IMG/VR virus record: IMGVR_UViG_3300042293_000027 | Span: 1-24,039 of that record | Direction: 5' to 3' (one strand) | From: a virus | DNA: 24,039 nt | In this document: one piece after another, positions 4,761 through 21,721 of the stretch | Layout of the letters: each line of letters begins with the position of its first letter | How positions within the stretch are numbered: position 1 is the first letter of the stretch | Position numbers and translations under genes: made by a program | The notes under the pieces: model-generated | Databases searched by the model: none | Seen by the model: only the letters and a program-made list of their open reading frames with translations | What the model was told of the DNA's origin: nothing

Positions 4761-4762
4761 TC

Positions 4763-5220: not shown

Positions 5221-5221
5221 G

Positions 5222-5247: not shown

Positions 5248-5256
5248 TCAATACCC

Positions 5257-5274
5257 GCGCCGAATGGCGCTTTT
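5257..5274 (+). terminator. Short rho-independent-terminator-like stem
   Basis: GCGCC (5257-5261), loop GAAT, GGCGC (5266-5270), followed by TTTT. The stem is only 5 bp and the U-run is short, so termination would be partial. Together with the 26-bp palindrome just upstream it separates the portal unit from the co-chaperonin gene, whose ribosome-binding site starts 4 nt later. Confidence 0.45.
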
Positions 5275-5288
5275 AACAAGGAAGTCGA

Positions 5289-5687
5289 ATGACTTTAGAA
5301 GAAGCATTTCCAGTAGTTGATTCAGGTTGCGCCCCGCTTGGTGGAAGAGTCTTAGTCCAGTTCAAGCAAACCCCCAAGAAAACCACGGCAAGTGGAATCA
5401 TTCTTGTGGAAGAAACCAAAGAAACCGAAAAGTGGAACACGCAGGTGTGCAAGGTCATTTCGCTTGGCGCATTGGCTTACCGCAACCGTGACACCCTTGA
5501 ACTTTGGTCTGAAGGTGTTTGGGCTGTGGTGGGCGACTATGTGCGCGTGCCACGTTGGGGCGGTGATCGGTGGGAAGTACCACTTGGCGAAGATGACAAA
5601 GAGTGCGCTCTATTTGCCATCTTTAATGATATCGAAGTGATCTCAAAAGTAACTGGTGATCCACTCAAAGTTAAGGCGTTCCTATGA
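5289..5687 (+). CDS. GroES-like (Cpn10) phage co-chaperonin
   Basis: The 132-residue protein has the Cpn10 order: a strand PLGGRVLVQFKQTPKKT (residues 16-32), then a mobile-loop-like stretch with the hydrophobic tripeptide Ile-Ile-Leu at 37-39 inside ASGIILVEETKETEK. In GroES-family proteins (and T4 gp31) this tripeptide docks on GroEL. Next come a VGDYVRVPRWGG strand and a C-terminal FAIFNDIEVIS strand near residues 107-117. It is longer than GroES (about 97 residues), with an N-terminal extension and a longer middle and C-terminus, as usual for phage versions. It probably acts in the cytoplasm as a lid for host GroEL during capsid-protein folding. It lies directly upstream of the scaffold-like gene, overlapping it by ATGA, and a few genes before the capsid gene. 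The start is set by AAGGAAG at 5278-5284. Confidence 0.85.
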   Translation: MTLEEAFPVVDSGCAPLGGRVLVQFKQTPKKTTASGIILVEETKETEKWNTQVCKVISLGALAYRNRDTLELWSEGVWAVVGDYVRVPRWGGDRWEVPLGEDDKECALFAIFNDIEVISKVTGDPLKVKAFL

Positions 5688-6628
5688 ACTCGACTGAAAA
5701 ACTTGAAATGCAAGACGAAGCTGACGGCAGCGCGGTAGTCAATCTGCCCGACGATCAAGAAAATCCACAGACACTAGCCGAAGGGGGCGATGTTGATAAC
5801 CATCCTGACGATACTGCGGGTGTTGACGATGACGATCCTGATCGTGAGCAGATTCGTGCTGCAAGACGCGAGGAACGCCGCCTCAAGAAACAGATTCACA
5901 AGGAGAAAGCAAGCCAGTCGAACCACCTCATCAATGCGCTGAAGAAGCAAAATCAGGCGCTTGAGTCACGTTTGGCTAATCTTGAAACCCGCACATCGGG
6001 CGCTGAACTGGCGCGTGTCGATAAGGTGATCGATGACACGCAGGTGCAGATCGAATACTCCAAGATGAAGATGCGCGAGGCGGTTGCCAACCAAGACGGC
6101 GATGCTGTGGTCAAGGCGCAAGAGTTGATGTATGAGTCGCAACGCAAGTTAGAGGCGCTCAACAACATCAAAACAAACGCCACCAAGCAAATGTCAGCCC
6201 CGAAGCAGAACATCAACGTGCCTGATCCTGTGGTGCAAGAGATGGCTGCTGATTGGATGGCAAAGCACAAGTGGTACGACCCCCAAGGCAAGAATTTGGA
6301 CTCAGAAATTGCCCAACGGATTGACAAATCTTTAACCGAAGAGGGTTTTGATCCATCTTCACAAGACTACTGGGATGAACTTGATGACCGACTCAAGAAA
6401 TATGTGCCGCACCGCTTCGATAGCAGACCATCGCGCACGCCGCCAAGGTCTATTGTGACTGGTTCGGGGCGTGAAAGTGCGCCTAACACCCGCTCAAATC
6501 AGTATGTGATCTCGCCTGCGCGTGTTGCAGCCATGAAAGAAGCGGGTGCTTGGGATGATCCAGTGCGCAAAGCCGCAATGGTGAAGCGATTTATGGAACA
6601 CGACCGTCTTAACAAAGGAAATCAATAA
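5684..6628 (+). CDS. Putative scaffolding / head assembly protein
   Basis: This 314-residue, highly charged protein has an acidic, disordered N-terminus (1-55, rich in Asp). A basic Arg/Lys helix (about 60-80) is followed by a long predicted coiled coil (about 80-165), then a more ordered C-terminal part with DWMAKHKWYDPQG (about 192-204) and a conserved-looking end, VAAMKEAGAWDDPVRKAAMV. This profile and its place between portal and capsid genes fit an internal scaffold that directs capsid assembly. No catalytic motif is seen. Residues 14-21 are DGSAVVNL, identical to portal residues 41-48, and residues 31-37 are LAEGGDV, a copy of the window's recurrent GG motif. Translation is coupled to the co-chaperonin by ATGA. 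A tape-measure or other coiled-coil role is a less likely alternative. Confidence 0.65.
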   Translation: MNSTEKLEMQDEADGSAVVNLPDDQENPQTLAEGGDVDNHPDDTAGVDDDDPDREQIRAARREERRLKKQIHKEKASQSNHLINALKKQNQALESRLANLETRTSGAELARVDKVIDDTQVQIEYSKMKMREAVANQDGDAVVKAQELMYESQRKLEALNNIKTNATKQMSAPKQNINVPDPVVQEMAADWMAKHKWYDPQGKNLDSEIAQRIDKSLTEEGFDPSSQDYWDELDDRLKKYVPHRFDSRPSRTPPRSIVTGSGRESAPNTRSNQYVISPARVAAMKEAGAWDDPVRKAAMVKRFMEHDRLNKGNQ

Positions 6629-7161
6629 TGGATAGCCGTTTAAAACGCAGTTCAGGCGCAGGGCGTGAGAGCCGTGCCGCACAAAACGCAGATCGCAGCC
6701 CTGCAGACGAGAAATTAGCGTCAACCTTGGCACGCCGCAAGATGTTCCGCGATGAGTTCATGCAAGAATCGCTTCCAAAAGTGCCTGACGATCCAAATTG
6801 GCACTATTGTTGGCTTTCTACAACAAATGCATACGACACGATCCACAAACGTATGCGTTTGGGCTACCAAGCGGTGACCACGGATGACCTGCCCGGCTTT
6901 GAACACCTTAAAGTCAAGTCAGGCGAACACGTTGGAAAAATTTCGATCAACGAGATGGTGCTTTATCGCTTGCCGATGGAGATTTATCAAGACTATATGC
7001 TTGAAACTCACCACTTCGCGCCGATTGAAGAGTCAGACAAGATTCGGACACAGCAAGAGCAGCTTTTGAGCGCCAAAGACAGCAGCGGTCGCCGTCTTGT
7101 TCAGTCAGAAGGTGATGGTATGCCTGATGAAAGCAATGTTCGTTTACCTGTTTTTGAGTAG
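6628..7161 (+). CDS. Conserved-looking head-region protein, function unknown
   Basis: A 177-residue protein starting at an ATG that overlaps the scaffold stop (TAATG), with AAGGAAA 7-8 nt upstream. The N-terminus (1-35) is basic and disordered. The ordered core contains HYCWLSTTNAYDTIHKRMRLGY (about 58-79), a Trp/Thr/Asn/Arg-rich block, then LPGFEHLKVKSGEHVGKISINEM and a YRLPMEIYQDYMLETHHFAP helix. I recall related proteins immediately upstream of capsid genes in other podoviruses, described only as structural or hypothetical. No enzymatic motif is evident. Its position at the end of the chaperone-scaffold unit, before the capsid promoter region, suggests an assembly factor or minor head component. 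It ends in DGMPDESNVRLPVFE, a probably flexible acidic tail. Confidence 0.65.
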   Translation: MDSRLKRSSGAGRESRAAQNADRSPADEKLASTLARRKMFRDEFMQESLPKVPDDPNWHYCWLSTTNAYDTIHKRMRLGYQAVTTDDLPGFEHLKVKSGEHVGKISINEMVLYRLPMEIYQDYMLETHHFAPIEESDKIRTQQEQLLSAKDSSGRRLVQSEGDGMPDESNVRLPVFE

Positions 7162-7165
7162 TCTG

Positions 7166-7192
7166 TTGTATTTGTGAAAATTACCTTATAAT
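7166..7192 (+). promoter_or_regulatory. Candidate sigma70-type promoter for the capsid genes
   Basis: A perfect TATAAT lies at 7187-7192 in the only long non-coding gap of the window. The best upstream match, TTGTAT at 7166-7171, is weak and the spacer is short (15 bp), so strength depends on the -10. Its place just before the two most highly demanded head genes supports a real promoter. Confidence 0.4.
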
Positions 7193-7201
7193 TCTCACAT
7201 A

Positions 7202-7271
7202 GCCGCCTGTTTTGCATAAGATGGGCGGCGCAATAGCAAGAATTTCTAAAATCACGTTGTATGGTGATTTT
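7202..7271 (+). other. Structured 5' leader upstream of capsid genes
   Basis: Two stem-loops follow the candidate promoter. GCCGCC (7202-7207) pairs with GGCGGC (7224-7229) over a 16-nt loop. AAAATCAC (7248-7255) pairs with GTGATTTT (7264-7271) over an 8-nt loop. Neither has a proper U-tract, so mRNA protection or attenuation is more likely than full termination. The remainder up to the AGGAG at 7322 is AT-rich, and I see no gene in 7162-7333. Confidence 0.45.
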
Positions 7272-7333
7272 GCCTGTAGCTTTGAACAAAGCGAAAATCA
7301 AAATTTCTTTTCAACTATTTTAGGAGTTTTCAA

Positions 7334-7921
7334 ATGAGTGCAACATCCGCACCTTTTGGTCTTCGCCCCGCATTCTTTCCCACTGGTGTGGAAAAAGCAC
7401 AGGCGTTAGCCAATGGAATTACTTCAGGGTATGCAACAAGCATCCTGAAGGGTCAAGCTGTTCAGTACAGCCCCAACGCAGGCGTGATTCTGCCAGTCTT
7501 GGACACCACAACCAACAGCGGTTTAGTTTCAGGCGTATTCGCAGGCGTTGAGTGGACTGATACGACTGGTCGCCGCCGTGTGTCGAATTACTGGCCCGCA
7601 AGCACCGCCGCTATTGCAGGCAGCATCGTCGCCTATTTTTTCAACGACCAACAAATCGTTTATGAAATTCAGACTGACGGCACTATGGCTCAAACGGCAG
7701 TCGGCAACGAAGCCAACCTGAGCAACTTTACTGCAGGCTCTACCACTACTGGCTTGTCGCAGATGACTTTATCTGCCTCGCTCGCAGGTTCGGGTTCAGC
7801 CGCGCAGTTCCGTATTGTTGATATTGCACCGTACGTTGACAACGCTTGGGGTGACCCTTTCGTGATCGTTCGGGTACAAGTCAGCAAGCCTCAGTTTATT
7901 TCGACTGTTAACGCCATCTAA
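7334..7921 (+). CDS. Beta-rich head protein, possibly decoration protein
   Basis: A 195-residue, Thr/Ser/Ala/Gly-rich, low-charge protein expected to be all-beta. It opens with a pattern I know from phage virion proteins next to capsid genes: SAPFGLRPAFFPTG, then ITSGYATSILKGQAVQ (about 28-43). The middle contains SGVFAGVEWTDTTGRRRVSNYWP, and the C-terminus has DNAWGDPFVIVRVQVSKPQF. There is no signal peptide or enzymatic motif. It is expressed from a strong AGGAG site with the leader aggagttttcaaATG, a 15-nt string repeated exactly before the gene at 8923. The promoter-like leader and the tight link to the capsid gene (11-nt gap) suggest a high-copy head component. A decoration or head-stabilising role is inference. 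Confidence 0.65.
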   Translation: MSATSAPFGLRPAFFPTGVEKAQALANGITSGYATSILKGQAVQYSPNAGVILPVLDTTTNSGLVSGVFAGVEWTDTTGRRRVSNYWPASTAAIAGSIVAYFFNDQQIVYEIQTDGTMAQTAVGNEANLSNFTAGSTTTGLSQMTLSASLAGSGSAAQFRIVDIAPYVDNAWGDPFVIVRVQVSKPQFISTVNAI

Positions 7922-7932
7922 GGGGAACTGAC

Positions 7933-8847
7933 ATGGCAGCACCAATGCGCAGTACCGACTTTAGATCGGTTGTTGAGCCGATCTTGAGCGAAGTTTTTGA
8001 TGGCGTGTATGACCAACGCTCTGACGAGTGGAACAAAGTGTTCCGCGAACAGACTGGCATCCCAAGAAACTACCACGAAGAGCCAGTTCTGTATGGCTTC
8101 GGTGCAGCACCTGAGTTACCTGACGGTAGCGCAGTGACGTACCAACAGGGTGGTGTTCTGTTCTTACAGCGTTACCTCTACAAAGTGTACGGGCTTGCCT
8201 TTGCACTGACCAAGGTACTCGTTGAAGACGGCGACCACATTCGTTTGGGTCAGGTCTATGCCAAGCACTTGGCACAGTCTTTGGTTGAAACCAAAGAAAC
8301 CCTGTCAGCTAACGTGCTGAACCGCGCTTTCAACAGTTCGTATGTTGGCGGTGATGGCGTTGCGCTCAGTTCGGCTTCACACCCGATTGTTAGCGGCAAC
8401 TTCAGCAACTTGTTGGCGACATCAGCTAACCTGTCACAGACTTCGCTTGAGCAGATGCTGATTCAGATTCGCCAAGCCGTGGACAACAACGGCAAGAAGA
8501 TTCGTCTTCAGCCGAAGCAGTTGGTTGTTGCCCCCGGTAACGTGTTCCAAGCCGAAGTTCTGTTGAAGTCTGTGCTTCGCGCAGGCACTGCCAACAACGA
8601 CATCAACCCAGTCAAGTCGATTGGTTTGTTGCCTGAAGGTTGCGCAGTTCTGTCGCGTTTGACTTCAGCTACAGCTTGGTGGGTGCAGACTGACGCGCCT
8701 GAAGGCTTGAAGTTGATGATGCGCCGTGGTCTTGAGAAGACTATGGAAGGTGACTTTGAGAGCGATTCAATGCGCTACAAGGCTACTGAGCGTTACACCG
8801 TGGGTTGGACTGACCCACGCGCAGTGTACGGCACGCCCGGCGTGTAA
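7933..8847 (+). CDS. Major capsid protein (HK97-fold type)
   Basis: The 304-residue protein matches major head proteins in length and pattern. It has an N-terminal helix (about 8-40), an E-loop-like segment with YGFGAAPELPDGSAVTYQQGG (about 54-74), a long helical spine around LVEDGDHIRLGQVYAKHLAQSL, and LQPKQLVVAPGNVFQAEVLL (about 191-210). The C-terminal AWWVQTDAPEGLKLMMRRG and YTVGWTDPRAVYG end is typical of this group. No protease or cleavable delta domain is obvious, which fits use of a separate scaffold. AAGGGG at 7920-7925 precedes the ATG. The strong terminator that follows ends the head transcription unit. The fold assignment rests on these patterns and on gene order. Confidence 0.85.
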   Translation: MAAPMRSTDFRSVVEPILSEVFDGVYDQRSDEWNKVFREQTGIPRNYHEEPVLYGFGAAPELPDGSAVTYQQGGVLFLQRYLYKVYGLAFALTKVLVEDGDHIRLGQVYAKHLAQSLVETKETLSANVLNRAFNSSYVGGDGVALSSASHPIVSGNFSNLLATSANLSQTSLEQMLIQIRQAVDNNGKKIRLQPKQLVVAPGNVFQAEVLLKSVLRAGTANNDINPVKSIGLLPEGCAVLSRLTSATAWWVQTDAPEGLKLMMRRGLEKTMEGDFESDSMRYKATERYTVGWTDPRAVYGTPGV

Positions 8848-8850
8848 AGC

Positions 8851-8883
8851 AAAGGGGGGCGGTGAAATACCCGCCCCTTTTTT
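8851..8883 (+). terminator. Strong rho-independent terminator after the capsid gene
   Basis: GGGGCGG (8856-8862) pairs with CCGCCCC (8871-8877) over an 8-nt loop. G-U and A-U pairs extend the base, and a run of T (8878-8883) follows. An A-run on the 5' side could allow some function on the other strand too. It lies 4 nt past the capsid stop codon. Confidence 0.85.
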
Positions 8884-8922
8884 AATTTAATTCTGAGTGG
8901 TTCAAGCCACAGGAGTTTTCAA

Positions 8923-9900
8923 ATGCCCCAGTTTTCAGACGACCTATTTTTAGGTTCAGCCATTACCACTCAGGGTGAAGATTCATACCCTGCTGTTTCA
9001 ACCTTTACTGGTTCAATTGCTACAACCACGCTGACCGTCACTGCGATGCTTTCGGGTGACCCAATTACTGTTGGTATGTTTATTGACAGTTCAACGGCAC
9101 TCACCAATGGAACTCGCATTACCGCTTTTGGTACAGGTACAGGCGGCGTAGGAACGTATACCGTAAGCGTTTCACAAACCGTAGCAAGCGCCACAATCAT
9201 TGGTTCGGGTAATGCTTCCTTGCAAAACCCATCACCCATGAGCGTAGGGGTTGGCCCATTGGGTCGCCTCTTCATTTGGGATGCTGTACCACAGGCAAAA
9301 CTGACAACAAACATTGTTGCCGCTGCCATCACAACTGCCGCCGCTCTCCCTCTCGCAGCAGGTGCAGGTGTTATATCCACGACCATCACAGGCGGCGCAA
9401 CAGGCTTGCAGCTTGACTGTCCTCGCGCAGTTGCTACAACCACAGGCGCAGGTACTCCGACTTCTGTCAACATTACCATTTCGGGTTACGACTATTACGG
9501 TCAAGCCATGAGCGAAGTGATCGCAACTGGTACAGTCGCATCAACAACGGTCAACGGTAAAAAAGCCTTTTACCAAATCTCTAGCGTTACCGCTTCAGGC
9601 GGCAGCGTGGTGACTGTTGCTGTGGGTACAACTGACATCTTGGGTTCGCCATTGCGCATTACTGACAGAGGCTACGTTGCCCGTGCAGGTTGGGATAACA
9701 CCTTGGCTGAAGATGCAGGCACAATGACTGTTGCCGCTACTTTGACGGCTACTACAACCACAGGCGATGTGAGGGGTACTTATGCGCCCTCATCTGCTTG
9801 TGACGGCATCAAACGGCTTGTGATGGGAATAGCCCTACCCGCAATCGCGGTTGGCCCGAACGCAACCCGCACTGGCGCTCTTGGCGTGACACAGGCATAA
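8923..9900 (+). CDS. Beta-rich virion protein with Ig-like insert
   Basis: A 325-residue, almost charge-free Thr/Ala/Gly/Val-rich protein. Residues about 27-95 form a self-contained repeat-like beta domain (FTGSIATTTLTVTAM ... GTGTGGVGTYTVSVSQTVAS) of a kind widely seen in marine and freshwater phage structural proteins. The C-terminal half contains TSVNITISGYDYYGQAMSEV ... AFYQISSVTASGG, which aligns in pattern with the protein at 10580. Near the end, the short motif DGIKRLVMGIALPAIAVG may pack against the particle. Its leader aggagttttcaaATG is identical to that of the head gene at 7334. It follows the capsid terminator, so either readthrough or an unrecognised promoter in 8884-8910 drives it. 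A minor capsid, decoration or fibre-base role is possible; the exact function is unknown. Confidence 0.6.
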   Translation: MPQFSDDLFLGSAITTQGEDSYPAVSTFTGSIATTTLTVTAMLSGDPITVGMFIDSSTALTNGTRITAFGTGTGGVGTYTVSVSQTVASATIIGSGNASLQNPSPMSVGVGPLGRLFIWDAVPQAKLTTNIVAAAITTAAALPLAAGAGVISTTITGGATGLQLDCPRAVATTTGAGTPTSVNITISGYDYYGQAMSEVIATGTVASTTVNGKKAFYQISSVTASGGSVVTVAVGTTDILGSPLRITDRGYVARAGWDNTLAEDAGTMTVAATLTATTTTGDVRGTYAPSSACDGIKRLVMGIALPAIAVGPNATRTGALGVTQA

Positions 9901-9911
9901 GGAGATAAATC

Positions 9912-10532
9912 ATGGGTTTCAAATCAGAAACAAAGATGAAGTCTACGGAAATGACTGCTGACGAAGTGACCACAAAGGGCATGAAGTCAGGCGGCAAGAC
10001 CAAGAAGATGGCAATGGGTGGCGGTATGCCTATGGGCGCACTTCCAACTGCCGCAGCCCCTGCGATGGGCGCACGCCCTGCGATGGGCGCACGCGCACCA
10101 ATGGGTCGTGGGATGCCTGCACGCCCCGCAATGGGCGCACGCAAGCCTGACCCACGCCAAGCCATGATTGAGGCTGCAATGGCTCAAAAAGCCGCTCAAG
10201 CACCGATGATGCGCAAGAAGGGTGGCAAGGCTGAAGGTGGCGAATCAAAAGCTGAGATGAAGGCTGACAAAGCCCAAGACAAGGCGATGATTGGCAAGGC
10301 GTTCAAGCAGCACGACACGCAAAAGCATGGTGACGGCAAGGGTACGAAGTTAAAACTTCAGACTGGCGGCGTTGCTAATGCGCAGGGCGGGTTCAAGAAA
10401 GGCGGCGGCATTCAGAAATTTGCCACAGGCGGTGTCGTAAGCGGCGCTGCAGGTTACAAAGACGGTGGCTTTGCCAAGGTTTCTTGCAAAGACGGCGGCG
10501 GCTTCAAGGCAATGAAGAAAGGCAACTGCTAG
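9912..10532 (+). CDS. Low-complexity basic Gly-Gly/Met/Lys-rich protein
   Basis: A 206-residue, highly basic, probably disordered protein. Residues 35-78 are built from an Ala/Met/Gly/Arg repeat (AMGA[RL] units). Residues 105-155 are Lys/Ala-rich and helical in character. The C-terminal third is packed with Gly-Gly units, including FATGGVV (170-176), KKGGG, YKDGG and CKDGGG, and ends with a short Lys/Cys tail. No known domain or catalytic motif is visible. AAGGAGA at 9899-9905 gives a strong ribosome-binding site. It shares its GG motif with the proteins at 17, 4763 and 5684, and resembles the one at 11317 in composition. Charge and disorder suggest nucleic-acid contact or a flexible virion glue; both ideas are inference. 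Codon choice matches the neighbours, arguing against a spurious frame. Confidence 0.65.
   Translation: MGFKSETKMKSTEMTADEVTTKGMKSGGKTKKMAMGGGMPMGALPTAAAPAMGARPAMGARAPMGRGMPARPAMGARKPDPRQAMIEAAMAQKAAQAPMMRKKGGKAEGGESKAEMKADKAQDKAMIGKAFKQHDTQKHGDGKGTKLKLQTGGVANAQGGFKKGGGIQKFATGGVVSGAAGYKDGGFAKVSCKDGGGFKAMKKGNC
10032..10142 (+). repeat. Interrupted repeat of ATGGGCGCACGC-type unit
   Basis: Copies of atgggcgcac occur at 10032, 10064, 10083 and 10131, the last three extended to atgggcgcacgc. They encode the MGAR/MGAL units of the low-complexity protein and could drive copy-number slippage. Confidence 0.7.
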
Positions 10533-10540
10533 TAATAAAT

Positions 10541-10565
10541 CGGGGCGGCTGCGGTCGCCTCGTTT
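10541..10565 (+). terminator. Weak terminator-like stem-loop
   Basis: CGGGGCG (10541-10547) pairs with CGCCTCG (10556-10562), one G-U included, over an 8-nt loop and is followed by TTT. The U-run is short. It fills most of the 47-nt gap between the genes at 9912 and 10580, so it could also be an intercistronic processing hairpin. Confidence 0.35.
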
Positions 10566-10579
10566 CTTCGGAGATACAC

Positions 10580-11314
10580 ATGGGTACTTATTCTTCCGCA
10601 ACTAGACAGGGTGCGTATGAACCTTTTGAATTACAAGTTTCTCGCGGTCAGGTAGACGGACACGAAGTATTGAATGTGTTTGGTTACTCTACGGCAACAC
10701 CAAGTTCAGGATTTATTGCTGCGTGGGAAAATAACACTGCGTATGCGTTCCCGACCGCTGCTTCCACTATGGTAGTTACAAGTAGTTCGGCATCTGATAC
10801 TGCCGTCACTATTTTAATTAGTGGTTTAGACGCAAATTACGAACGCATTAGCGAATCCGTTGCTTTAAATGGCACAACCGCTGTAACCACCACTAAAGTT
10901 TTTTTCCGTATTAATAGCGTATTGACTATTTTAGGCAATGCTGTTGGTACTGTTTATGTAAAAAATGCTGGTGGAACAACTTACGCACAAATTGCGATTG
11001 GCAGCGGCAAAACAAATATGTCGATCTACACTGTTCCTGCGGGATATACCGCTTACTGGACTCAGTTTGATTCATTTTCATCTACATCTGTAACTTCAGG
11101 CGTTTATGCAACTTTTCGGGCGCTTCTTACTAGTCCTACAGGCGTAAATAACGTCACATTGACAATCCCATTTTTAAATGATTTCAGCGTTACCCGCCCG
11201 TATCCTGTTGCCTACGTTGAAAAAACTGACGTTCAATGGCAGTGTAAGTCTAGCGGTGCAGGTCTTGGTATTGGAACTTTAGCTATCGGCGTGTTAATCA
11301 AAAATCCTGATTAA
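10580..11314 (+). CDS. Beta-rich virion protein related to the one at 8923
   Basis: I place the start at the ATG preceded by CGGAG (10569-10573), giving 244 residues. An in-frame upstream start at 10484 would extend back into the preceding gene and add an implausible Arg-rich leader. The protein begins MGTYSSATRQGAYEPFELQV and is Thr/Ser/Ala/Val-rich throughout. Its segment TAVTILISGLDANYERISES ... VFFRINSVLTILG parallels TSVNITISGYDYYGQAMSEV ... AFYQISSVTASGG in the upstream virion protein, so the two probably share a beta domain. A C-terminal strand set (RPYPVAYVEKTDVQWQCKSS) may mediate oligomer contacts. The gene is distinctly AT-rich in codon choice (many TTA, ATT, TTT) compared with the flanking GC-richer genes, hinting at separate ancestry. 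It is probably a structural protein; its exact place in the particle is unknown. Confidence 0.65.
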   Translation: MGTYSSATRQGAYEPFELQVSRGQVDGHEVLNVFGYSTATPSSGFIAAWENNTAYAFPTAASTMVVTSSSASDTAVTILISGLDANYERISESVALNGTTAVTTTKVFFRINSVLTILGNAVGTVYVKNAGGTTYAQIAIGSGKTNMSIYTVPAGYTAYWTQFDSFSSTSVTSGVYATFRALLTSPTGVNNVTLTIPFLNDFSVTRPYPVAYVEKTDVQWQCKSSGAGLGIGTLAIGVLIKNPD

Positions 11315-11316
11315 TC

Positions 11317-11826
11317 ATGCCAAGCAAATCACCTGCCCAAAAGCGTTTGATGCAAGCCGCCGCCCACACTAAAGGCGGGTTCGGCGGTGTGCCTCAGAAA
11401 GTTGGCAAGGAGTTTGCCAAAGCTGACAAGATGAAAGGCGGTGGACTGTACGAAAACATCCACGCCAAACGTGAGCGCATCGCAGAAGGATCAGGCGAGA
11501 AGATGCGCAAAGTTGGCAGCGCAGGCGCACCGACCGCTGCAGCTTTCAAGGAGTCTGCAAAGACAGCAAAGATGAAAGACGGCGGCGTGTCGCTTGCGGT
11601 GGGTCGCGGCGAAAAGTTACCAACTAAACAAGGTGCGGGGCTGACAGAAAAGGGTCGGGCAAAGTACAATCGTGAAACTGGTAGCCACTTAAAAGCGCCG
11701 CAGCCTGAAGGCGGCAGTCGTAAGGATTCGTTCTGTGCAAGGATGAGCGGCGTAGTGAAGCACGCAAAAGGTGATGCGCCTCGCGCAAAAGCCTCTCTCA
11801 AACGATGGAAATGTCCGGGGTGGTAA
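11317..11826 (+). CDS. Basic phage protein with KSPAQKRLM and SFCARMSG motifs
   Basis: A 169-residue very basic protein starting 2 nt after the previous stop, with no clear Shine-Dalgarno site, so it is probably coupled. It has three recognisable parts. The N-terminal PSKSPAQKRLMQAAAH is followed by VPQKVGKEFAKAD. A middle block runs GGGLYENIHAKRERIAEGSG, MRKVGSAGAPT. The C-terminus is DSFCARMSGVVKHAKGD with a final SLKRWKCPGW, placing three Cys at its end. I recall the FCARMSG...KRW/C ending in small proteins of cyanophages and other aquatic phages, without a known role and with no domain name I can vouch for. Gly-Gly units (KGGFGG, KMKGGGLY, KMKDGGV) relate it in style to the other GG-rich proteins here. 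It may be a virion-associated nucleic-acid-binding protein, but that is inference. Confidence 0.65.
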   Translation: MPSKSPAQKRLMQAAAHTKGGFGGVPQKVGKEFAKADKMKGGGLYENIHAKRERIAEGSGEKMRKVGSAGAPTAAAFKESAKTAKMKDGGVSLAVGRGEKLPTKQGAGLTEKGRAKYNRETGSHLKAPQPEGGSRKDSFCARMSGVVKHAKGDAPRAKASLKRWKCPGW

Positions 11827-12885
11827 ATGGCAACAAGCGGCACAGTCGGGCAAACTACCATTTCGGTAATGACGCTCATCGATCATGGTGCAAGACGCGC
11901 AGGTAAACTCGCCGAAGAGTTGACCTCTGAGCAGGTCTTAGCCGCCAAGCAAAGTCTGTATTTTTTGCTGTCGAACCTTGTCAACATGGGCATCCAGTAT
12001 TGGTGCATTGACAAGGTGATCGTTGGTCTGCAGCCCGAACAATTGTCGTACACGCTACCAGTCGGTACGGTTGACGTATTGAACGCCAACTACCGCACGG
12101 TGACCGCGAACAACACGGGCTACAACAGCACATCAGGTATCACCTCAAATGCGTTTGATGGGATCGGTCAAAGCATATGCCAACTGACATCAAACACGGG
12201 TTCAATCGGGATTGCGAACGGAACGGGTAGCCCAGTTTACGTTTCAACGGTTGGGATACTCCCTGCGATGTCAGGATCGGTCACAGCGGCGATCCAATAC
12301 TCAATTGATGGCACAACATGGGTAACCGTGGAATCGCTTCCTGCGACCGCTTGGTCGGTCAATGAGTGGATTTATTACGACATCAACGCATCTGCAAACG
12401 CCCCCTACTGGCGCATTCAGCAGTCAGCAGGCGTGAACATGGGGTTCTATCAGGTGGTGTTTGGGTCATCACCCATCGCCATTAATATGTCGCGCATGAA
12501 TCGTGACGATTACTCAAGCCTGCCGAACCGCAATTTCACATCAAATCGCCCTCTCCAATGGTGGTTTGATCGCACGATTCCGCAGCCCACGATGTATTTA
12601 TGGCCCGTTCCCAACAACATCCAACCAATGCTTGAACTGTGGGTCAGCCGTCAGATTCAAGACGTTGGCGACCTAAACGGCGAGTTGGAAATCCCGCAGC
12701 GTTGGTACATGGCGATCCTGAACGGGTTGTCGCATCAGATGGCGATGGAACTTCCACAGGTTGACCCTGCGCGGATTCAATACTGCGAGGCTCAGTGGGA
12801 AAAATATTGGGCGATGGCTGAGAACGAAGAGCGCGACAAGTCACCGATTTATTTCGCACCCAACATCAGCTACTACACACGATAA
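11827..12885 (+). CDS. Head-tail adaptor-like protein with inserted beta-sandwich
   Basis: The 352-residue protein starts with a helical segment (LIDHGARRAGKLAEELTSEQ ... KQSLYFLLSNLVNMGIQYW, 18-59) and the strand pattern QLSYTLPVGTVDVLNANYR (72-90). These are typical of adaptor or tail-completion proteins of the P22 gp4 / T7 gp11 type. The adaptor pattern resumes after residue 220 with RDDYSSLPNRNFTSNRPLQW, PQPTMYLWPVPNN and a C-terminal helical bundle. Residues about 100-217 are an insertion resembling a discoidin/galactose-binding beta-sandwich (AAIQYSIDGTTWVTVES, APYWRIQQS, GFYQVVFG). It probably binds the portal ring and connects the tail. The start follows the previous stop directly, with a GGGGTGG run upstream. 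A second, shorter adaptor-like gene lies at 21092. The functional call is by pattern only. Confidence 0.65.
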   Translation: MATSGTVGQTTISVMTLIDHGARRAGKLAEELTSEQVLAAKQSLYFLLSNLVNMGIQYWCIDKVIVGLQPEQLSYTLPVGTVDVLNANYRTVTANNTGYNSTSGITSNAFDGIGQSICQLTSNTGSIGIANGTGSPVYVSTVGILPAMSGSVTAAIQYSIDGTTWVTVESLPATAWSVNEWIYYDINASANAPYWRIQQSAGVNMGFYQVVFGSSPIAINMSRMNRDDYSSLPNRNFTSNRPLQWWFDRTIPQPTMYLWPVPNNIQPMLELWVSRQIQDVGDLNGELEIPQRWYMAILNGLSHQMAMELPQVDPARIQYCEAQWEKYWAMAENEERDKSPIYFAPNISYYTR

Positions 12886-13214
12886 TGGGCAGATTCCTCA
12901 ACACCCTTGGCAATGCGTCACTATCAATCGCAATCTGCGACCGATGCCGCATGAAGAGGGCGTATTCGGTCATCAGCCAAGACGGGAACATACCCGGTCT
13001 TCGCGTGTGCAACGAAGGCTGCTCTGACCAGTTTGACCCCTACCGCCTGCCTGCGCGACAGACAGAAAAGATTTCAATTCGATTCCCCCGCCCTGATGTG
13101 AGCGTTATTGCGGCGCACAATGCGCTAGTCACCAACCCATCGGGCGGCTTGGGTATCGCGCTTGAGCAAACAGACGATCCGATTGACGGAAACCTTGACA
13201 CATTGAGTCCATAA
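12885..13214 (+). CDS. Zinc-ribbon-like small phage protein
   Basis: A 109-residue protein with four cysteines in a CxxC ... CxxxC arrangement: Cys18, Cys21, Cys42 and Cys46. The stretch RMKRAYSVISQDGNIPGLRV lies between the pairs, consistent with a zinc ribbon or knuckle. The segment DPYRLPARQTEKISIRFPRP follows. The C-terminal 35 residues are acidic and Pro/Gly-rich. I recall similar short proteins between adaptor and fibre genes in other phages, of unknown role. The start overlaps the adaptor stop (TAATG) and the stop overlaps the fibre start in the same manner, so all three genes are coupled. It may be a small tail structural protein or a fibre assembly factor; the sequence does not distinguish these. 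Confidence 0.65.
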   Translation: MGRFLNTLGNASLSIAICDRCRMKRAYSVISQDGNIPGLRVCNEGCSDQFDPYRLPARQTEKISIRFPRPDVSVIAAHNALVTNPSGGLGIALEQTDDPIDGNLDTLSP

Positions 13215-16200
13215 TGGCTGACGTAAGAATCTCCGCACTACCCCAACAACAGACCCCATTGACTGGTTTGGAATTAGTTCCAATCGTTCAAAACGGTTTG
13301 ACTGTACAGACTACATTAGCCCTGATCGGTGCGTTGAGCGCAGGCGGCGTGACAACCTTTTCAGGTGGCGCGACAGGCTTGCTGCCCTCATCCCCCACGG
13401 TTGGTGCGATCACGCTTGCGGGTATGCTGAACGCCACATTCGGCGGCACGGGTATAGCTGCATACGTTGCGGGTGACCTTTTACGCGCCAATAGCACCAC
13501 GACCTTACAGAGACTAGCGATAGGTACAAACGGTCAGGTGCTGACGGTTGTCGCGGGTGCGCCTGCGTGGGCGGCGGCTAGTACAGGATCGGTCACAAGC
13601 GTGAGCGGTACGGGAACGGTCAACGGATTGACCTTGACGGGTACAGTCACCTCTTCGGGCAACTTGACGCTTGGTGGGGTGCTTGACCTGTCATCACCCC
13701 CTGCAATCGGTGGAACAGCGGCGGCGGCGGGTACGTTCACAACTTTGCGCGTTGACTCAACAATCTCGCTTGCGGGTTCAACTGGAACGGCGGGTTATGT
13801 TCTGACCTCACAAGGTGCAAGCGCCCCCACTTGGACAGCGGTTAGCAGCGGATCGGGGAACGTGGTCGGGCCTGCCAGTGCGACCGCCAACGGCATCGCC
13901 CTGTTTGACGGCACGACAGGCTTGTTGCTCAAGAACAGCGCAAGCACTGACGCATTGATTCGCGGCATGACATTGGGTCTTGGTAGCGGCACAGGGAATT
14001 TCGCTAGTACCGCGCTTGGTGTGAACGCCCTTTTAAGCAACACCACGGGCAGCTACAACGTAGCCTTTGGTTACGATGCGCTTTCATCTAACACCACTGG
14101 TGAGTACCATGCGGCGTTTGGGTATCAAGCACTTGATTCGCAAACAACGGGTACTGAAAATACGGCTGTTGGTTATTGGGCTTTGCAAAGCACCAACACA
14201 GGCAGCTACAACACCGCGATGGGTGGGTTTGCGGGTAGCGATCTAACAACAGGATCGAACAACCTCTTCCTTGGCGTTGACTCAGGTAACAACCTCACTA
14301 CTGGATCAAACAACGTTTATATCGGTAAAGCTACTGCGTTTAGTCCGTCAGAGAGCAACAACATAGTTTTTGGAGATGGATCAGGAGAGCGATGGAGAAT
14401 TACTGATACGGGTGCGTGGTACATCAACGCAAATACTGGTACTAGTGGGCAGGTGTTTACGTCTAATGGGTCAGCAACAAACCCTACTTGGACTTCCCTT
14501 GGCACGATGTCCACGCAAAATTCTACGGGCGTGTTCATCACAGGCGGCTCAATAAGCGACACAGACATCACAGTCAAAGACGATGTATTTACGCTGCAAG
14601 ACAATCTCGACCCGACTAAGCAAGCGCAGTTTCAGTTGAGTGGGTTACTAACTGGCACAACTTACGTTTACACGCTACCCACAAGCGGTAGTGGGGCTTC
14701 TACGCTTGTAGACCTTAATTCAAGTCAAACTATTAGCGCAACCAAAACTCTTTCTTCTGCAACGCAAAACTTAGGGTCATCAGCAAATACGGGAACACAA
14801 CAGTTTGCATATGGCTCAACAGCAAGCGGCAACACCAAAACCGTCAACGTAGGCACAGGCGGTCTAAGCGGCTCAACTACAAACATTGCTATTGGTTCAA
14901 GCGTATCAGGTGCAACAAGCACCACAACGATGAACGGCGTGACCAACTTCTTGGATACAGGGTTTACGCTTCAAGATAATGCCGATACGACCAAGCAAGC
15001 GCAGTTTCAGTTAGGCAGTATTACAACCGCAACAACCCGCGCCTACACGTTACCTAACCTTGACACAGTCTTAGCAGGTCTTGCTGTTAGCCAAACATTT
15101 AGCAACACCAACGTTTTTTCAAACGGCACAAACACATTTGGATCTGCTACTGGTACGGGAACAAATGGTTTCAGTTCAGGTGCAACCACCACAGGCAACA
15201 CCAAAACCGTCAACGTAGGCACAGGCGGTTTAAGCGGATCGACCACAAACATCACAGTCGGGTCAGCAAATGGCTCAACGACAACGCTGCTTGGCACGAC
15301 AGTCATCGGCGGTGCGGCGGGTAGTCAGTCGCTGCAAGTTAATAGCGTGGCGAGTGCGGTTAACTATGCTCAAATTGTTGGTGCGGTTACCAACTCTAAT
15401 CCTCTTATTTCGGCTCTTGGCACAGACACCGATATTGGCTTAAATTTTGACGTAAAAGGGGTCGGCACTCATAAATTTAGAGGTGTAAACGGATCTGCCA
15501 CACAGTTTTCAATTGACACAACCACAAACGCTGTAAATTTTCTTACTGTTACAGGTGGTGTTGCAGGTGGATACCCGCCAATTTTTAGAAATACGGGTTC
15601 TGATGCAAACATTGGCATGGTGTTTGTGACAAAAGGCACGGGCAATATTTTACTGACTACAAACTACGCTACTCAAGCCCAAGTAAGCGCCACAGCCTCC
15701 GCAGTCAACTACTTGCAACTTACAGGCGCAGCTACAGGCGCAGCCCCAACTATTTCGGCGCAGGGTTCGGATGCAAATATTGGTCTTACTTACACCTCTA
15801 AAGGTACGGGTGTGCAACAATTTTTTGTTGGCGCTTACCCTGTTTTGCGACTTGAAGGCGGTTTGGTTTCACAACAAAATACGCTTCAATTATATGCTGC
15901 GTCTAATAGTTTAAATTTAAACGCTATTGGTGCTGACACCACTATCAACTTTAACATTGTTGCAAAAGGATCGGCGTTTTACAATTTTCAATCAGGCAAC
16001 GGCATACAGTTTTTAATAAATAGCACAGCATCCGCAGTCAATTACGCTCAAGTCACAGGCGCAGCTACAGGCGCAGCACCGACTATTTCGGCGGCGGGTT
16101 CGGATGCGAATATTGGCTTAGTCTTAACAAGCAAAGGCACAGGCGTTGTTGCGTTGGGCGGGAATACGGTTGCTAATAGTGGGTTTGTTGTTTTGCCTAC

Positions 16201-16600
16201 AACATCAAGCGTTAATTATGTACAAGTAAATGGTGGAACAGCAGGTGGTGCGCCGCCAGTTTTAGCAGCAACGGGAACTGACGCCAACATTGGGTTAGGT
16301 ATTCGACCAAAAGGTTCTTTTAGCGTTACTTTTAATAATACTGTTGGCTCAACAATAGCCGAAATGGCTGTATCAACAACAGGTTTTGGGGTGAATTTTG
16401 TACGTCTTACAGGCGCAGCCACAGCAAACGCACCCGAACTATCAGCCCAAGGCTCAGACACAAACATCAACTTAAAGTTGACAACAAAAGGCACAGGCAC
16501 AGTGCAGTACGGAACATACACGGCAGGTGTTTTATCTCCCACTGGCTACATTACAATAACGGATGCGGGTGGAACATCTCGCAGACTTTTAGTTGGTTAA
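13214..16600 (+). CDS. Long repeat-built tail fibre protein
   Basis: A 1128-residue fibre. The N-terminus (ISALPQQQTPLTGLELVPIV, 6-25) is a phage-fibre attachment pattern I recognise. Residues about 268-370 are YadA-head-like repeats (NTTGSYNVAFGYDAL, TGTENTAVGYWAL, TGSYNTAMGG, TGSNNLFLG), which wind as a trimeric left-handed beta-roll. About 460-708 is a tandem pair of roughly 125-residue modules, each with TLQDN, TKQAQFQL, YTLP and GNTKTVNVGTGGLSGSTTN. From about residue 711 there are seven roughly 57-residue repeats with core SAVNYxQVTGAATGAAPTIS and GSDANIGL...KGTG. It ends YITITDAGGTSRRLLVG. There is no S74 chaperone at the C-terminus; one is encoded two genes further on. Start and stop of the zinc-ribbon gene overlap here, and no Shine-Dalgarno site is clear. 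Likely role: host-surface contact. Confidence 0.85.
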   Translation: MADVRISALPQQQTPLTGLELVPIVQNGLTVQTTLALIGALSAGGVTTFSGGATGLLPSSPTVGAITLAGMLNATFGGTGIAAYVAGDLLRANSTTTLQRLAIGTNGQVLTVVAGAPAWAAASTGSVTSVSGTGTVNGLTLTGTVTSSGNLTLGGVLDLSSPPAIGGTAAAAGTFTTLRVDSTISLAGSTGTAGYVLTSQGASAPTWTAVSSGSGNVVGPASATANGIALFDGTTGLLLKNSASTDALIRGMTLGLGSGTGNFASTALGVNALLSNTTGSYNVAFGYDALSSNTTGEYHAAFGYQALDSQTTGTENTAVGYWALQSTNTGSYNTAMGGFAGSDLTTGSNNLFLGVDSGNNLTTGSNNVYIGKATAFSPSESNNIVFGDGSGERWRITDTGAWYINANTGTSGQVFTSNGSATNPTWTSLGTMSTQNSTGVFITGGSISDTDITVKDDVFTLQDNLDPTKQAQFQLSGLLTGTTYVYTLPTSGSGASTLVDLNSSQTISATKTLSSATQNLGSSANTGTQQFAYGSTASGNTKTVNVGTGGLSGSTTNIAIGSSVSGATSTTTMNGVTNFLDTGFTLQDNADTTKQAQFQLGSITTATTRAYTLPNLDTVLAGLAVSQTFSNTNVFSNGTNTFGSATGTGTNGFSSGATTTGNTKTVNVGTGGLSGSTTNITVGSANGSTTTLLGTTVIGGAAGSQSLQVNSVASAVNYAQIVGAVTNSNPLISALGTDTDIGLNFDVKGVGTHKFRGVNGSATQFSIDTTTNAVNFLTVTGGVAGGYPPIFRNTGSDANIGMVFVTKGTGNILLTTNYATQAQVSATASAVNYLQLTGAATGAAPTISAQGSDANIGLTYTSKGTGVQQFFVGAYPVLRLEGGLVSQQNTLQLYAASNSLNLNAIGADTTINFNIVAKGSAFYNFQSGNGIQFLINSTASAVNYAQVTGAATGAAPTISAAGSDANIGLVLTSKGTGVVALGGNTVANSGFVVLPTTSSVNYVQVNGGTAGGAPPVLAATGTDANIGLGIRPKGSFSVTFNNTVGSTIAEMAVSTTGFGVNFVRLTGAATANAPELSAQGSDTNINLKLTTKGTGTVQYGTYTAGVLSPTGYITITDAGGTSRRLLVG
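14591..15340 (+). repeat. Tandem duplication of a ~125-residue fibre module
   Basis: Module one starts at 14591 and module two at 14966, both with TLQDN followed by TKQAQFQL. A 36-bp exact direct repeat beginning ggcaacaccaaaaccgtc lies at 14828-14863 and 15194-15229, one in each module. Identity at DNA level implies recent duplication or gene conversion. Confidence 0.8.
15344..16522 (+). repeat. Seven ~57-residue repeats in fibre C-terminus
   Basis: Seven in-frame repeats run from SVASAVNYAQI to the GTGTVQYG near the end. The fourth (GLVSQQNTLQL) is strongly diverged. Copies three and five are nearly identical in DNA around 15722 and 16056 (acaggcgcagctacaggcgc in both), indicating recent duplication or conversion between non-adjacent copies. 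Confidence 0.8.
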
Positions 16601-16616
16601 CTTCAGGAGAATTGAT

Positions 16617-16793
16617 TTGAACGATTTACCCTTAAAACTTTCAGCAGAAGAAATCAATTACGTTTTGCAATTGCTTGGTGAGCAGCCAAACAAAAGCAAC
16701 ACTTACCCGCTGTTGATGAAGATCAAGCAACAAGCCGAAGCCGCTGCAATCACGCAAGCCCCCGTAACCCCACTACCAAAGGTCGAATTATGA
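16617..16793 (+). CDS. Short hypothetical protein, TTG start
   Basis: AGGAG at 16605-16609 sits 7 nt before a TTG at 16617, giving 58 residues. A TTG at 16593 is possible but lies inside the fibre gene's end and lacks a ribosome-binding site. The protein has a helical core, LSAEEINYVLQLLGEQPNKS, then TYPLLMKIKQQAEAAA and a Pro/Thr-rich tail. No domain is recognised. I recall similar LSxEEINYVLQLLGEQP proteins near tail fibre genes in other phages. Its stop overlaps the next start (ATGA). It may be a fibre assembly accessory, but nothing in the sequence proves this. Confidence 0.65.
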   Translation: MNDLPLKLSAEEINYVLQLLGEQPNKSNTYPLLMKIKQQAEAAAITQAPVTPLPKVEL

Positions 16794-17140
16794 AATGGTC
16801 AATTAACAGTCTGATGGTCACCAACGATGTCAAACCTGACATGGTCACGATGTCAAACTTCACGATCAGCGACACCCAAGACGGTCTGACTGGTCAGGTC
16901 AGCTACTCGCTCAACTTGCTGCCTGCCGATCCACAGAATTACACGCCGTACAACCAAGTCACTCAAGATCAAGCGATCCAGTGGACACAAGACGCTGCGG
17001 GTGCTGCACGCATTGCATCTTGGGAGAAGGAAGTGCAGGCGCAGATCGATGCGCAAAAAATTCCTACACCCCAACCTGCGCCCTTACCTTGGGCAGAGCC
17101 AACAGAACCCTCGCCTTTGGCAGAGCCAACAGAAGGATAA
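16790..17140 (+). CDS. Small tail-region protein, function unknown
   Basis: This 116-residue protein contains a predicted beta-rich front half (VTMSNFTISDTQDGLTGQVS, 19-38), then YTPYNQVTQDQAIQWTQDAA (51-70) and a helix ending in VQAQIDAQKIP. The combination 'four strands, then a TPYxxxTxxxxIxW helix, then xQxQIDxQ' is one I recall in many small phage proteins beside fibres, with no known function. The last 20 residues are a Pro-rich imperfect tandem (WAEPTEP / LAEPTEG), encoded by a short DNA repeat at about 17093-17134. It overlaps the upstream gene by ATGA and is separated from the S74 gene by 3 nt. It may be a fibre-tip adaptor or assembly protein, by location only. Confidence 0.65.
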   Translation: MKWSINSLMVTNDVKPDMVTMSNFTISDTQDGLTGQVSYSLNLLPADPQNYTPYNQVTQDQAIQWTQDAAGAARIASWEKEVQAQIDAQKIPTPQPAPLPWAEPTEPSPLAEPTEG

Positions 17141-17143
17141 ATC

Positions 17144-17818
17144 ATGGCTGCAGTCGGATTCAACACGCTCAGTCTGTACTACACCGCTACAGCGGCGCAA
17201 GTACCAAGCAATGTCAACTTGGCGTTTGGCGAACTAGCGATCAACATCACAGACGGAAAGTTGTTTTACAAGGACAACTCAAGCGTGGTGCAAGTCCTCG
17301 CGCAGAAAGGCGTTGTGACGAGTATTGTCGGTACGGCGAACCAAGTGGTTGCCACGCAGTCGGGGACAGGCCCGTTCACCTACACGCTGTCCACGCCACA
17401 AAGCATCGGCACAACCTCTGACGTTCGGTTCAATTCGATTGGGCTTGGCACGGCAGCGTCAGGCGTTGCGGGTGAGGTTCGCGCCACGGGTAACGTCACG
17501 GCGTATTACTCTTCGGACATCAAGTTCAAAGAGAACGTGCAGCCAATTTACGATGCCTTAAATACGGTAGCGCGGATCGGCGGCAAGACGTTTGACTGGA
17601 AAGAGGACTACATTCAGTCGCACGGCGGCATGGATGGATACTTTATCCGCAAGGCTGACTTCGGATTCATCGCGCAAGACGTTCAAGCGGCTTTTCCTCT
17701 TGCCGTGCGCACGCGACCTGATGGTTCGTTGGCGGTTGATTACGCAAAGATGATCGCGTTGGCGTTTAGCGCGATTGCCGAACTCAAGTCACAAGTTGAA
17801 GCGTTGAAAAATGCCTAA
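17144..17818 (+). CDS. Short tail fibre/spike with Peptidase_S74-type chaperone
   Basis: A 224-residue protein with a fibre-like N-terminus (FNTLSLYYTATAAQVPSNVN, then LAFGELAINITDGKLFYKD at 27-44), a short beta stalk and, from residue 123, an intramolecular chaperone of the S74 type. Visible landmarks are SSDIKFKEN (123-131), FGFIAQDVQAAFP (173-185), DGSLAVDYAKMIALAFSAIA (193-212) and a C-terminal coiled coil. By analogy with endosialidase-type chaperones, Ser124 and Lys129 (spacing of five) would form the self-cleavage dyad, cutting before Ser124. The mature fibre part would then be only about 123 residues. The chaperone trimerises and folds the beta stalk. AAGGA at 17133-17137 supports the start. 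It may form the distal tip added to the long fibre, or a separate short fibre. Confidence 0.85.
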   Translation: MAAVGFNTLSLYYTATAAQVPSNVNLAFGELAINITDGKLFYKDNSSVVQVLAQKGVVTSIVGTANQVVATQSGTGPFTYTLSTPQSIGTTSDVRFNSIGLGTAASGVAGEVRATGNVTAYYSSDIKFKENVQPIYDALNTVARIGGKTFDWKEDYIQSHGGMDGYFIRKADFGFIAQDVQAAFPLAVRTRPDGSLAVDYAKMIALAFSAIAELKSQVEALKNA

Positions 17819-19645: not shown

Positions 19646-19801
19646 ATGAATATTTCTATTGAACTTTTGAACTCAATCTTGCAATACCTTGGCAGTCGCC
19701 CATACGTTGAGGTCGCTGACTTCATCACCAAAGTACGGGCTGAAGCGCAAGCCGATGCCGCAGCAAAATCTGTTTTACCCACAGAAACACAAGAGGGTTA
19801 A
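19646..19801 (+). CDS. Very short hypothetical protein, 51 residues
   Basis: This ORF begins directly after the preceding TAA, with AAAGGA at 19634-19639 upstream. The product MNISIELLNSILQYLGSRPY continues with VEVADFITKVRAEAQADAAA and a Thr/Glu-rich tail. It resembles one short amphipathic helix pair. Spacing (2 nt to the next gene), ribosome-binding site and codon use favour a real gene. I do not recognise it. It sits at the junction between the receptor-binding and lysis blocks. Confidence 0.55.
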   Translation: MNISIELLNSILQYLGSRPYVEVADFITKVRAEAQADAAAKSVLPTETQEG

Positions 19802-20667: not shown

Positions 20668-21095
20668 TGTTTACATTCTCAGATCGGTCATTGAATAACC
20701 TCAAGGGTGTACACCCCAAACTTGTTGCGGTTGTCAAACGGGCGCTTGAGTTAAGCACAATTGACTTCACCGTTTTAGAGGGCGTGCGCTCACAGGCGCG
20801 ACAAGATGAATTGTGGGCGCAGGGGAGAACGAAGCCCGGTCAAGTGGTGACTTGGGTTCAGACATCAGGCACGCACGGCATCCAAGCGGATGGTTTCGGT
20901 CACGCCGTTGATCTTGCCCCTTACCCAATTGATTGGAACAATTTCAAACGTTTTGACCAATTGGCGAATACAATGTTTATCGCAGCCAAAGAATTAAACG
21001 TGACGCTTCGTTGGGGCGGCGATTGGGATATGGATTCTGTCATCCATGAACGTGGCGAGTCTGACAGCCCTCATTATGAGTTGATCAATCCATGA
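20667..21095 (+). CDS. M15-type endolysin (L-alanyl-D-glutamate endopeptidase-like)
   Basis: The 142-residue protein has the arrangement of phage peptidase M15 (VanY/T5-endolysin type) enzymes. It shows FTVLEGVRSQARQDELWAQG (34-53), then SGTHGIQADGFGHAVDLAPY (67-86), then LRWGGDWD (114-121) and DSPHYEL (133-139). Zinc ligands would be His70, Asp82 and His136, and Asp133 sits at the spacing of the catalytic Asp in T5 endolysin. The His-to-Asp spacing is 12 residues, five longer than the short SxHxxGxAxD form; I recall this 'ADGxGHAVD' variant from other phages. The enzyme would cut the peptide stem of peptidoglycan. It has no signal peptide, so release needs the holin. GGAG lies 9 nt before the ATG. 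Confidence 0.85.
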   Translation: MFTFSDRSLNNLKGVHPKLVAVVKRALELSTIDFTVLEGVRSQARQDELWAQGRTKPGQVVTWVQTSGTHGIQADGFGHAVDLAPYPIDWNNFKRFDQLANTMFIAAKELNVTLRWGGDWDMDSVIHERGESDSPHYELINP

Positions 21096-21721
21096 CAACC
21101 TCATTTGCTCTGACTTACGACAGCTTGGTAACTGCTATGACGCAGTACCTTGAGCGCAATGACGCTTCGGTTGTTGACCAAATCCCCACCTTTATCACGT
21201 TGGCTGAGTTTGAAATCGCCCAACAGATTAAGACGTTGGGTCAGATGCAGGTCGTGCAAAGCACCATGTCAATCAACAATCCGATCATCCAAAAGCCTGC
21301 ACGTTGGCGCAAAACAACAAGTATGTCGGTCACGGTCAATGGGGAAAAGAAACAAATTTTCTTGCGCAAGTATGAGTATTTGAACTTATATAACGGCAAC
21401 GGCGCGACAGGCATTCCTTTGTATTACGGCGATTACGACTACGACCATTGGTTGGTCGCACCCGCGCCTGATCAGGCATACCCGTTTGAGGTGCTGTATT
21501 ACGAGCGTCTGATGCCCCTATCAAGCATCAATCAGACGAACTGGCTCACCAACAACGCCCCGAACCTCATGTTGTTTGGTGCGCTCTTACAAGCCGTGAT
21601 CTTCTTGAAGAATGATGATCGGGTGATATTTCAACAGAAATACGAGGCGGCGTTACAAGCCGTAAAAGGCGAAGACACAACCCGTGTCGGCGACCGCAGC
21701 GCAATCGCCGTTGACAGTTAA
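21092..21721 (+). CDS. Phage adaptor / tail-completion-like protein
   Basis: A 209-residue protein overlapping the endolysin stop by ATGA. It has an N-terminal helical part (LVTAMTQYLERNDASVVDQI, then LAEFEIAQQIKTL), a central beta part with KPARWRKTTSMSV, KQIFLRKYEYLNLYNG and IPLYYGDYDYDHWLVAPAPD, and a C-terminal helical part with YYERLMPLSSINQTNWLTNN, LMLFGALLQAVIFLKNDDR and YEAALQAVK. This helix-strand-helix order is typical of head-tail adaptor or gateway proteins that bind under the portal. Its separation from the head genes by the whole fibre and lysis blocks is unusual but consistent with a tail-side role. Together with the gene at 11827 it gives two adaptor-like proteins. Confidence 0.65.
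   Translation: MTTSFALTYDSLVTAMTQYLERNDASVVDQIPTFITLAEFEIAQQIKTLGQMQVVQSTMSINNPIIQKPARWRKTTSMSVTVNGEKKQIFLRKYEYLNLYNGNGATGIPLYYGDYDYDHWLVAPAPDQAYPFEVLYYERLMPLSSINQTNWLTNNAPNLMLFGALLQAVIFLKNDDRVIFQQKYEAALQAVKGEDTTRVGDRSAIAVDS

Follow-up and report, generated by a model that had tools for sequence, protein, structure and literature searches.

A predicted tail fibre with a mosaic body and an array of 57-residue units probably exchanged between phages

Tail-fibre exchange is known mostly as the swapping of whole genes or of tips. In the portions of the literature drawn upon here, the gp38 protein of T-even phages is described as having hypervariable regions flanked by conserved glycine repeats (PMC6027323), the distantly related Alteromonas phages A5, V22 and P24 as having host-recognition modules (fibre plus chaperone) in common (PMC10579305), and near-identical phages from cryoconite as carrying flexible tail-fibre modules (PMC7468147). 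Here, we describe a gene for a 1128-amino acid tail fibre, contained in a 24,039-base stretch of virus DNA (IMG/VR record IMGVR_UViG_3300042293_000027; ‘the window’), a genome fragment that also encodes portal, capsid, adaptor and tail proteins. The fibre is a single open reading frame (ORF; 13214..16600, + strand, as for all parts of the fibre, the cassette border and the genes directly downstream), its identity being predicted from its position among structural genes and from PHROG matches to families of unknown function and to virion structural families.

We consider it likely that this fibre is a mosaic cassette, with a predicted role in host recognition, that was swapped into the lineage of the window phage, and that its C-terminal repeat array arose through exchanges among phages. 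A short N-terminal anchor would remain with the phage lineage, whilst the body—including an array of 57-residue units with its C-terminal ‘cap’, a 58-amino acid ORF and a DUF7936 gene—would be drawn from a pool common to other phage lineages and imported onto the resident anchor. Each unit consists of a conserved core of about 36 codons and a variable linker of about 20 residues; homologous recombination in the cores, presumably of the general phage or host kind, would join different linkers in frame and alter the number of units, so that arrays would be assembled over time by exchange between phages, with possible changes in fibre length and host binding.

Replacement of the fibre body between conserved neighbours

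Viral loci and contigs for comparison (referred to by L-numbers) were fetched using scan queries that included the adaptor gene just upstream of the fibre (40 loci), the array region (55 loci) and the major capsid gene (80 of at least 597 relatives taken). The fibre table covers the window and 33 of the 40 adaptor-scan loci; L028, L033, L034, L037, L040, L041 and L042 were left out, their fibre ORFs being fragmentary or unclear. Ahead of counting, L001 (the window itself) and L045, L102, L105 and L114 (the same contigs as L002, L047, L073 and L057) were removed, and near-identical ORFs were collapsed, from 64 to 42 for the unit count, 67 to 45 for BLAST match ends and 51 to 42 for the anchor count.

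The adaptors of L005, L006 and L007 are 97–98% identical to that of the window, and their backbones match it in long stretches at 90–95% DNA identity and shorter ones at 75–84%, whereas their fibre bodies are quite different. The match within the fibre stops at 13314 (L005) or 13452 (L006 and L007), and that of the flank picks up again at 17129 in L005 and L007, the L006 contig ending within the fibre. The part shared with L005 coincides with a conserved anchor (about amino acids 1–33; 13214..13314), which in our survey is common to 42 dereplicated fibres (215 sequences); 33 of these are complete, at 351–1191 amino acids, and 4 of the 42 carry the array, with four to seven units. In 61 locus pairs, identity reaches at least 90% for the adaptor and at least 85% for the anchor; the bodies of these pairs show less than 20% collinear similarity in 33 and more than 80% in 28. 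An ORF with the 57-residue repeat was found in none of the 40 adaptor-scan loci, many of whose fibres are incomplete.

At the other end, positions 16409–17100 are matched in L046, L073, L104 and L106 as one block of 684–696 nucleotides at 71–76% identity, spanning unit 7 of the array, the cap, the 58-amino acid ORF (16617..16793; TTG start, overlapping the next start codon, and shorter than the 80-residue limit of the ORF list) and most of the way into the DUF7936 gene (16790..17140; 116 amino acids; Pfam PF25590, E 3.6e-12). The fibre end and the two small genes behind it are co-inherited: in the DNA examined around the match in these four contigs, no other non-fibre protein of the window finds a match, except for an ORF overlapping DUF7936. 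The matches of the carriers end at 17093–17100 and that of L005/L007 resumes at 17129, which places the right border of the swapped cassette at 17097..17128. The same body segments are found in phages with unrelated backbones, again as judged from the DNA examined around each match. The DUF7936 gene goes with the fibre swap and not with the backbone, its product being 82–86% identical in L046, L073, L104 and L106 and 56–57% in L005 and L007; it lies within 1.2 kb after 15 of the 21 array-plus-cap ORFs (near-identical contigs included), and in most of the other carriers read, a counterpart of the 58-amino acid ORF occupies the interval that separates the fibre from DUF7936. L051 and L056 combine a related adaptor (72–74%) with an array fibre and DUF7936; the array is thus not wholly foreign to the wider phage group, but foreign to the nearest relatives of the window.

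The 57-residue units and their relatives

An earlier note on this stretch had proposed seven repeats of 57 residues, and these are indeed present, beginning at amino acids 716, 774, 831, 889, 942, 1000 and 1060. Unit 1 (15359..15532) and unit 2 (15533..15703; 92% at the nucleotide level) are closest to units 1 and 2 of L002, and unit 5 (16037..16210) to unit 3 of L057, at 83% over 159 nucleotides with the linker included. Units 3 (15704..15877), 4 (15878..16036), 6 (16211..16390) and 7 (16391..16597) make up the rest of the array; unit 4 is highly diverged, as the note had said, and unit 7 runs into the cap, the last 33 residues of the fibre (16499..16597).

Units 3 and 5, described in the same note as nearly identical in DNA, are in fact 57% identical over their whole length: 76% over the first 36 codons and 26%, the level of chance, over the other 22 codons, which form the linker. 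What they share is a tract limited to the core, 98 nucleotides at 86.7% (15691..15788 in unit 3, 16024..16120 in unit 5). We scored such pairs by counting identical codons among those encoding the same residue and comparing this with the expectation from codon usage, expressed as z with a mark at z > 3; units whose cores offered fewer than 26 positions were excluded, and so were pairs in which same-residue codons numbered fewer than 12. Units 3 and 5 have 31 same-residue codons, of which 20 agree, more than the 10.5 expected (z = 3.7); theirs is the sole pair to exceed the mark among the 21 that the window units can form.

In a tree of 207 cores, from the 42 dereplicated ORFs of the array scan, the nearest neighbour lies in another phage for all seven units of the window. 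Where both linkers could be compared in pairs with high core scores (38 pairs), these were at chance in 25 and homologous in 12; it is because tracts stop at core edges and adjoin unrelated linkers that we infer the cores to act as recombination joints, and array exchange between phages probably proceeds through them. We do not take the clustering of BLAST match ends at core edges (251 ends) as proof of this, since conserved cores alone would yield the same, and used the synonymous test instead. Searched as DNA against a phage collection, the array returned nothing; the matches at the protein level were all partial and below 60% identity.

The number of units varies from 1 to 23 per ORF, and one type of cap stands behind two to seven units in the window and in L002, L046, L049, L055, L073, L074, L082, L089, L104 (four units or three, depending on threshold) and L108. 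In L002, units 1 and 2 are 89–92% identical to those of the window, the next unit resembles unit 3 at its start and unit 7 at its end, and units 4–6 are absent; the backbone of L002 is different, and its other genes do not match the window. Unit number therefore varies among relatives, and does so in a manner that keeps the unit register. Neither a uniform repeat number nor clock-like divergence among copies, which would have told against the note’s proposal, was found; of the recombination it had proposed, the core-limited tracts, the hybrid unit of L002 and the cap with its varied copy numbers bear out the general idea, though not the specific claim of recent conversion between non-adjacent copies.

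Several other contigs deserve mention for their arrays. L047 (159,889 bases) contains a fibre-like ORF (2544–11507) of at least 2988 amino acids, with 23 of the 57-residue units together with the 125-residue module described below. L003 carries two adjoining fibre ORFs with the repeat (6771–12475) that have a long identical peptide in common, pointing to a duplication or an exchange inside that phage. Stretches of L054 and L066, and of L075 and L079, are 92–99% identical, with repeat regions that match only partly (the order being changed in L054/L066), making these pairs natural cases for the study of array recombination.

Competing explanations for the array

Conversion or duplication inside the gene could have transferred part of unit 3 to unit 5, or in the opposite direction, whilst skipping unit 4. 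We regard this as unlikely, although the tract has the shape expected of conversion—about 87% identity with unrelated sequence on either side—and unit 5 is the best raw DNA match of unit 3. Tracts at the same place and of similar identity join unit 3 to L073 (84.8%) and L057 (83.8%), and the match of unit 5 to L057 extends over 159 nucleotides as opposed to the 98 shared with unit 3. At synonymous sites unit 3 scores 3.9 with unit 2 of L073 and 3.7 with both unit 5 and unit 2 of L046; the best score of unit 5, with unit 3 of L057, is 6.1. Other phages thus hold partners that roughly equal the mutual similarity of the two units in the case of unit 3, and surpass it in that of unit 5, in line with the core tree; and a divergence of 13% is not recent. 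More broadly, synonymous similarity was no higher among copies in the same gene than among those of different genes, with a mean z of 0.20 for adjacent units, 0.23 for non-adjacent units and 0.20 between genes; the mark of z > 3 is passed by 0 of 153 adjacent within-gene pairs (0.2 expected), 5 of 466 non-adjacent within-gene pairs (0.7) and 137 of 18,961 between-gene pairs (32), so that pairs from the same gene show no clear enrichment relative to pairs from different phages. Given the partners in other phages and the codon test, local conversion is not needed to account for the tract in units 3 and 5. The between-gene excess also speaks against a history free of recombination, in which cores would be alike merely through a conserved protein motif and codon preference. 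The motif of the core is indeed conserved, and codons are saturated in most pairs of units, but synonymous identity lies far above the codon-usage expectation in pairs whose linkers are at chance, and we judge this explanation very improbable.

Programmed variation of tip or length within a population, by a diversity-generating retroelement, an invertase or slippage, would fit with the differing unit numbers between phages. We saw no sign of it, and give it hardly any weight: the Pfam-scanned proteins of the window, itself a genome fragment, include no reverse transcriptase or recombinase; adjacent copies show no particular similarity; and in the overlaps of near-identical contigs, L049/L051 and L060/L061 for example, the array is unchanged. 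None of the repeat arrays of the fibre is picked up by Tandem Repeats Finder, which indicates that these are old and diverged at the DNA level. The variation at the tip that had been suggested is doubtful in any case, the last 33 residues being conserved across phages whilst the inner array varies. An equally slight chance attaches to the fibre being an assembly chimera of two phages. Its body is unique among the fetched contigs and its flanks match a different phage lineage; against this, the left border falls in diverged sequence (72% over 251 nucleotides to L007) and not in a lengthy run of identity, the reading frame stays open, and an anchor of this kind is coupled to an array of this type in L049, L058 and L170.

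A number of observations weigh against the mosaic-cassette explanation that we prefer. Besides unit 5 being the best raw match of unit 3, 16 of 203 units have a nearest neighbour in the core tree that belongs to their own ORF, roughly twice the 6.8 expected by chance, and the non-adjacent within-gene pairs pass z > 3 at a slightly higher rate (1.07%) than those between genes (0.72%). Label changes on the tree number 164, whereas 500 shuffles averaged 174.4 and none fell that low; mixing is thus incomplete and some within-gene signal exists. As the cores comprise only 36 codons and are mostly saturated, the assignment of a nearest neighbour is weak for many units, and most of all for units 4 and 6. 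The identity of 71–76% in the right-hand block means that a close donor was not encountered and that the import is not demonstrably recent; six of the 21 array-plus-cap ORFs have no DUF7936 gene within 1.2 kb, two of these lying near a contig end (61 bases left in L002, 622 in L086); and the window fibre is a single contig, known from assembly alone.

A more far-reaching version of the mosaic-cassette explanation is possible, and is offered tentatively. The unit of about 57 residues may be a general fibre-building joint, at which conserved core DNA would let unrelated phages splice in frame at any unit, with units almost freely mixed; array, cap, 58-amino acid ORF and DUF7936 would then travel as a single cassette for host recognition, the two small proteins perhaps serving as an assembly chaperone or tip cap.

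Other layers of the fibre, neighbouring genes and relation to known systems

Ahead of the array lies a tandem pair of modules of about 125 residues, correctly recognised in the earlier note along with its exact 36-bp repeat: module A (14588..14962, from amino acid 459; 36-bp word at 14828–14863) and module B (14963..15328, from amino acid 584; word at 15194–15229). The pair tells the same story as the 57-residue units, with close partners in other phages: module B shows 83% identity with L100 across 291 nucleotides and 91% with L104 across 148. An exact scan of viral contigs for the 36-bp word found it in no other contig; it recurs with one mismatch in L104, which was fetched later, and this tells against recent conversion. 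The stretch further upstream (14009..14338; about amino acids 266–375) had been likened to the YadA head. It is real, with relatives in phages and motifs at amino acids 281, 298, 332 and 349, but its period is 17 residues rather than the 14 of the YadA-type head, and no Pfam family, the YadA head model included, matches the fibre at E <= 0.1; the name therefore rests on resemblance. Nor did the fibre find a relative among PDB sequences at E <= 1. The two AlphaFold2 models are of low confidence (mean predicted local distance difference test scores of 56.5 and 52.1), an unsurprising outcome for intertwined trimers whose alignments are shallow. For the YadA-like part (52.1), the best VIA-align match is 4ea7 (Z 6.2, root-mean-square deviation 2.3, 80 residues aligned), which we take to be an acyltransferase-type beta-helix; the array gave a match to a Bdellovibrio fibre (Z 2.9, root-mean-square deviation 5.5, 86 aligned), and we draw on neither of these matches.

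The name DUF7936 is absent from the literature searched, and we attribute to chance its three PDB matches (E 0.021–0.79), two of which bear the name protocadherin; its travel, and that of the 58-amino acid ORF, with the fibre end constitutes a first functional lead for both. A promoter or terminator in the gap after the fibre was rejected, as matches were at the level of shuffles and the gap contains an ORF. Beyond the cassette border, the backbone resumes with a gene (17144..17818) carrying, according to Pfam, a Peptidase_S74 (chaperone of endosialidase) domain. After the tail genes, a 51-amino acid ORF (19646–19801; begins MNISIELLNSILQYLG) resembles the 58-amino acid ORF by eye, making two such small proteins in one phage. 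Elsewhere, a phage-encoded GroES-like co-chaperonin (5289–5687; Pfam Cpn10, E 1.5e-07) lies between the portal and capsid genes, and the SU10 adaptor family is matched twice, at 11827–12885 (E 0.00013, below Pfam’s cut-off) and 21092–21721 (E 2e-20).

Broad tail-fibre exchange is already known, from gp38 and from the Alteromonas and cryoconite phages, and we do not claim that the unit-level pattern is unpublished. As far as the parts of those reports used here extend, the window fibre resembles gp38 in that conserved motifs flank variable segments and recombinational exchange changes, or in the window would change, the adhesin; it differs in that its conserved motif is the core of a unit of about 57 residues, present in 1–23 copies and varying in number, and known here from sequence alone. 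The Alteromonas phages likewise have a fibre and its downstream gene common to phages with unrelated genomes, but there the chaperone is laboratory-tested, in place of which the window has DUF7936, the 58-amino acid ORF and a repeat array (PMC10579305). In the cryoconite phages, too, near-identical core genomes carry interchangeable fibre variants, put down to recombination; in the window, exchange is traced to repeat units and to a layout of anchor, array and cap (PMC7468147). Exchange is here traceable to the single repeat unit, with its constant core and changing linker, over dozens of uncultured phages, and recombination joints, unit number and fibre length therefore become countable.

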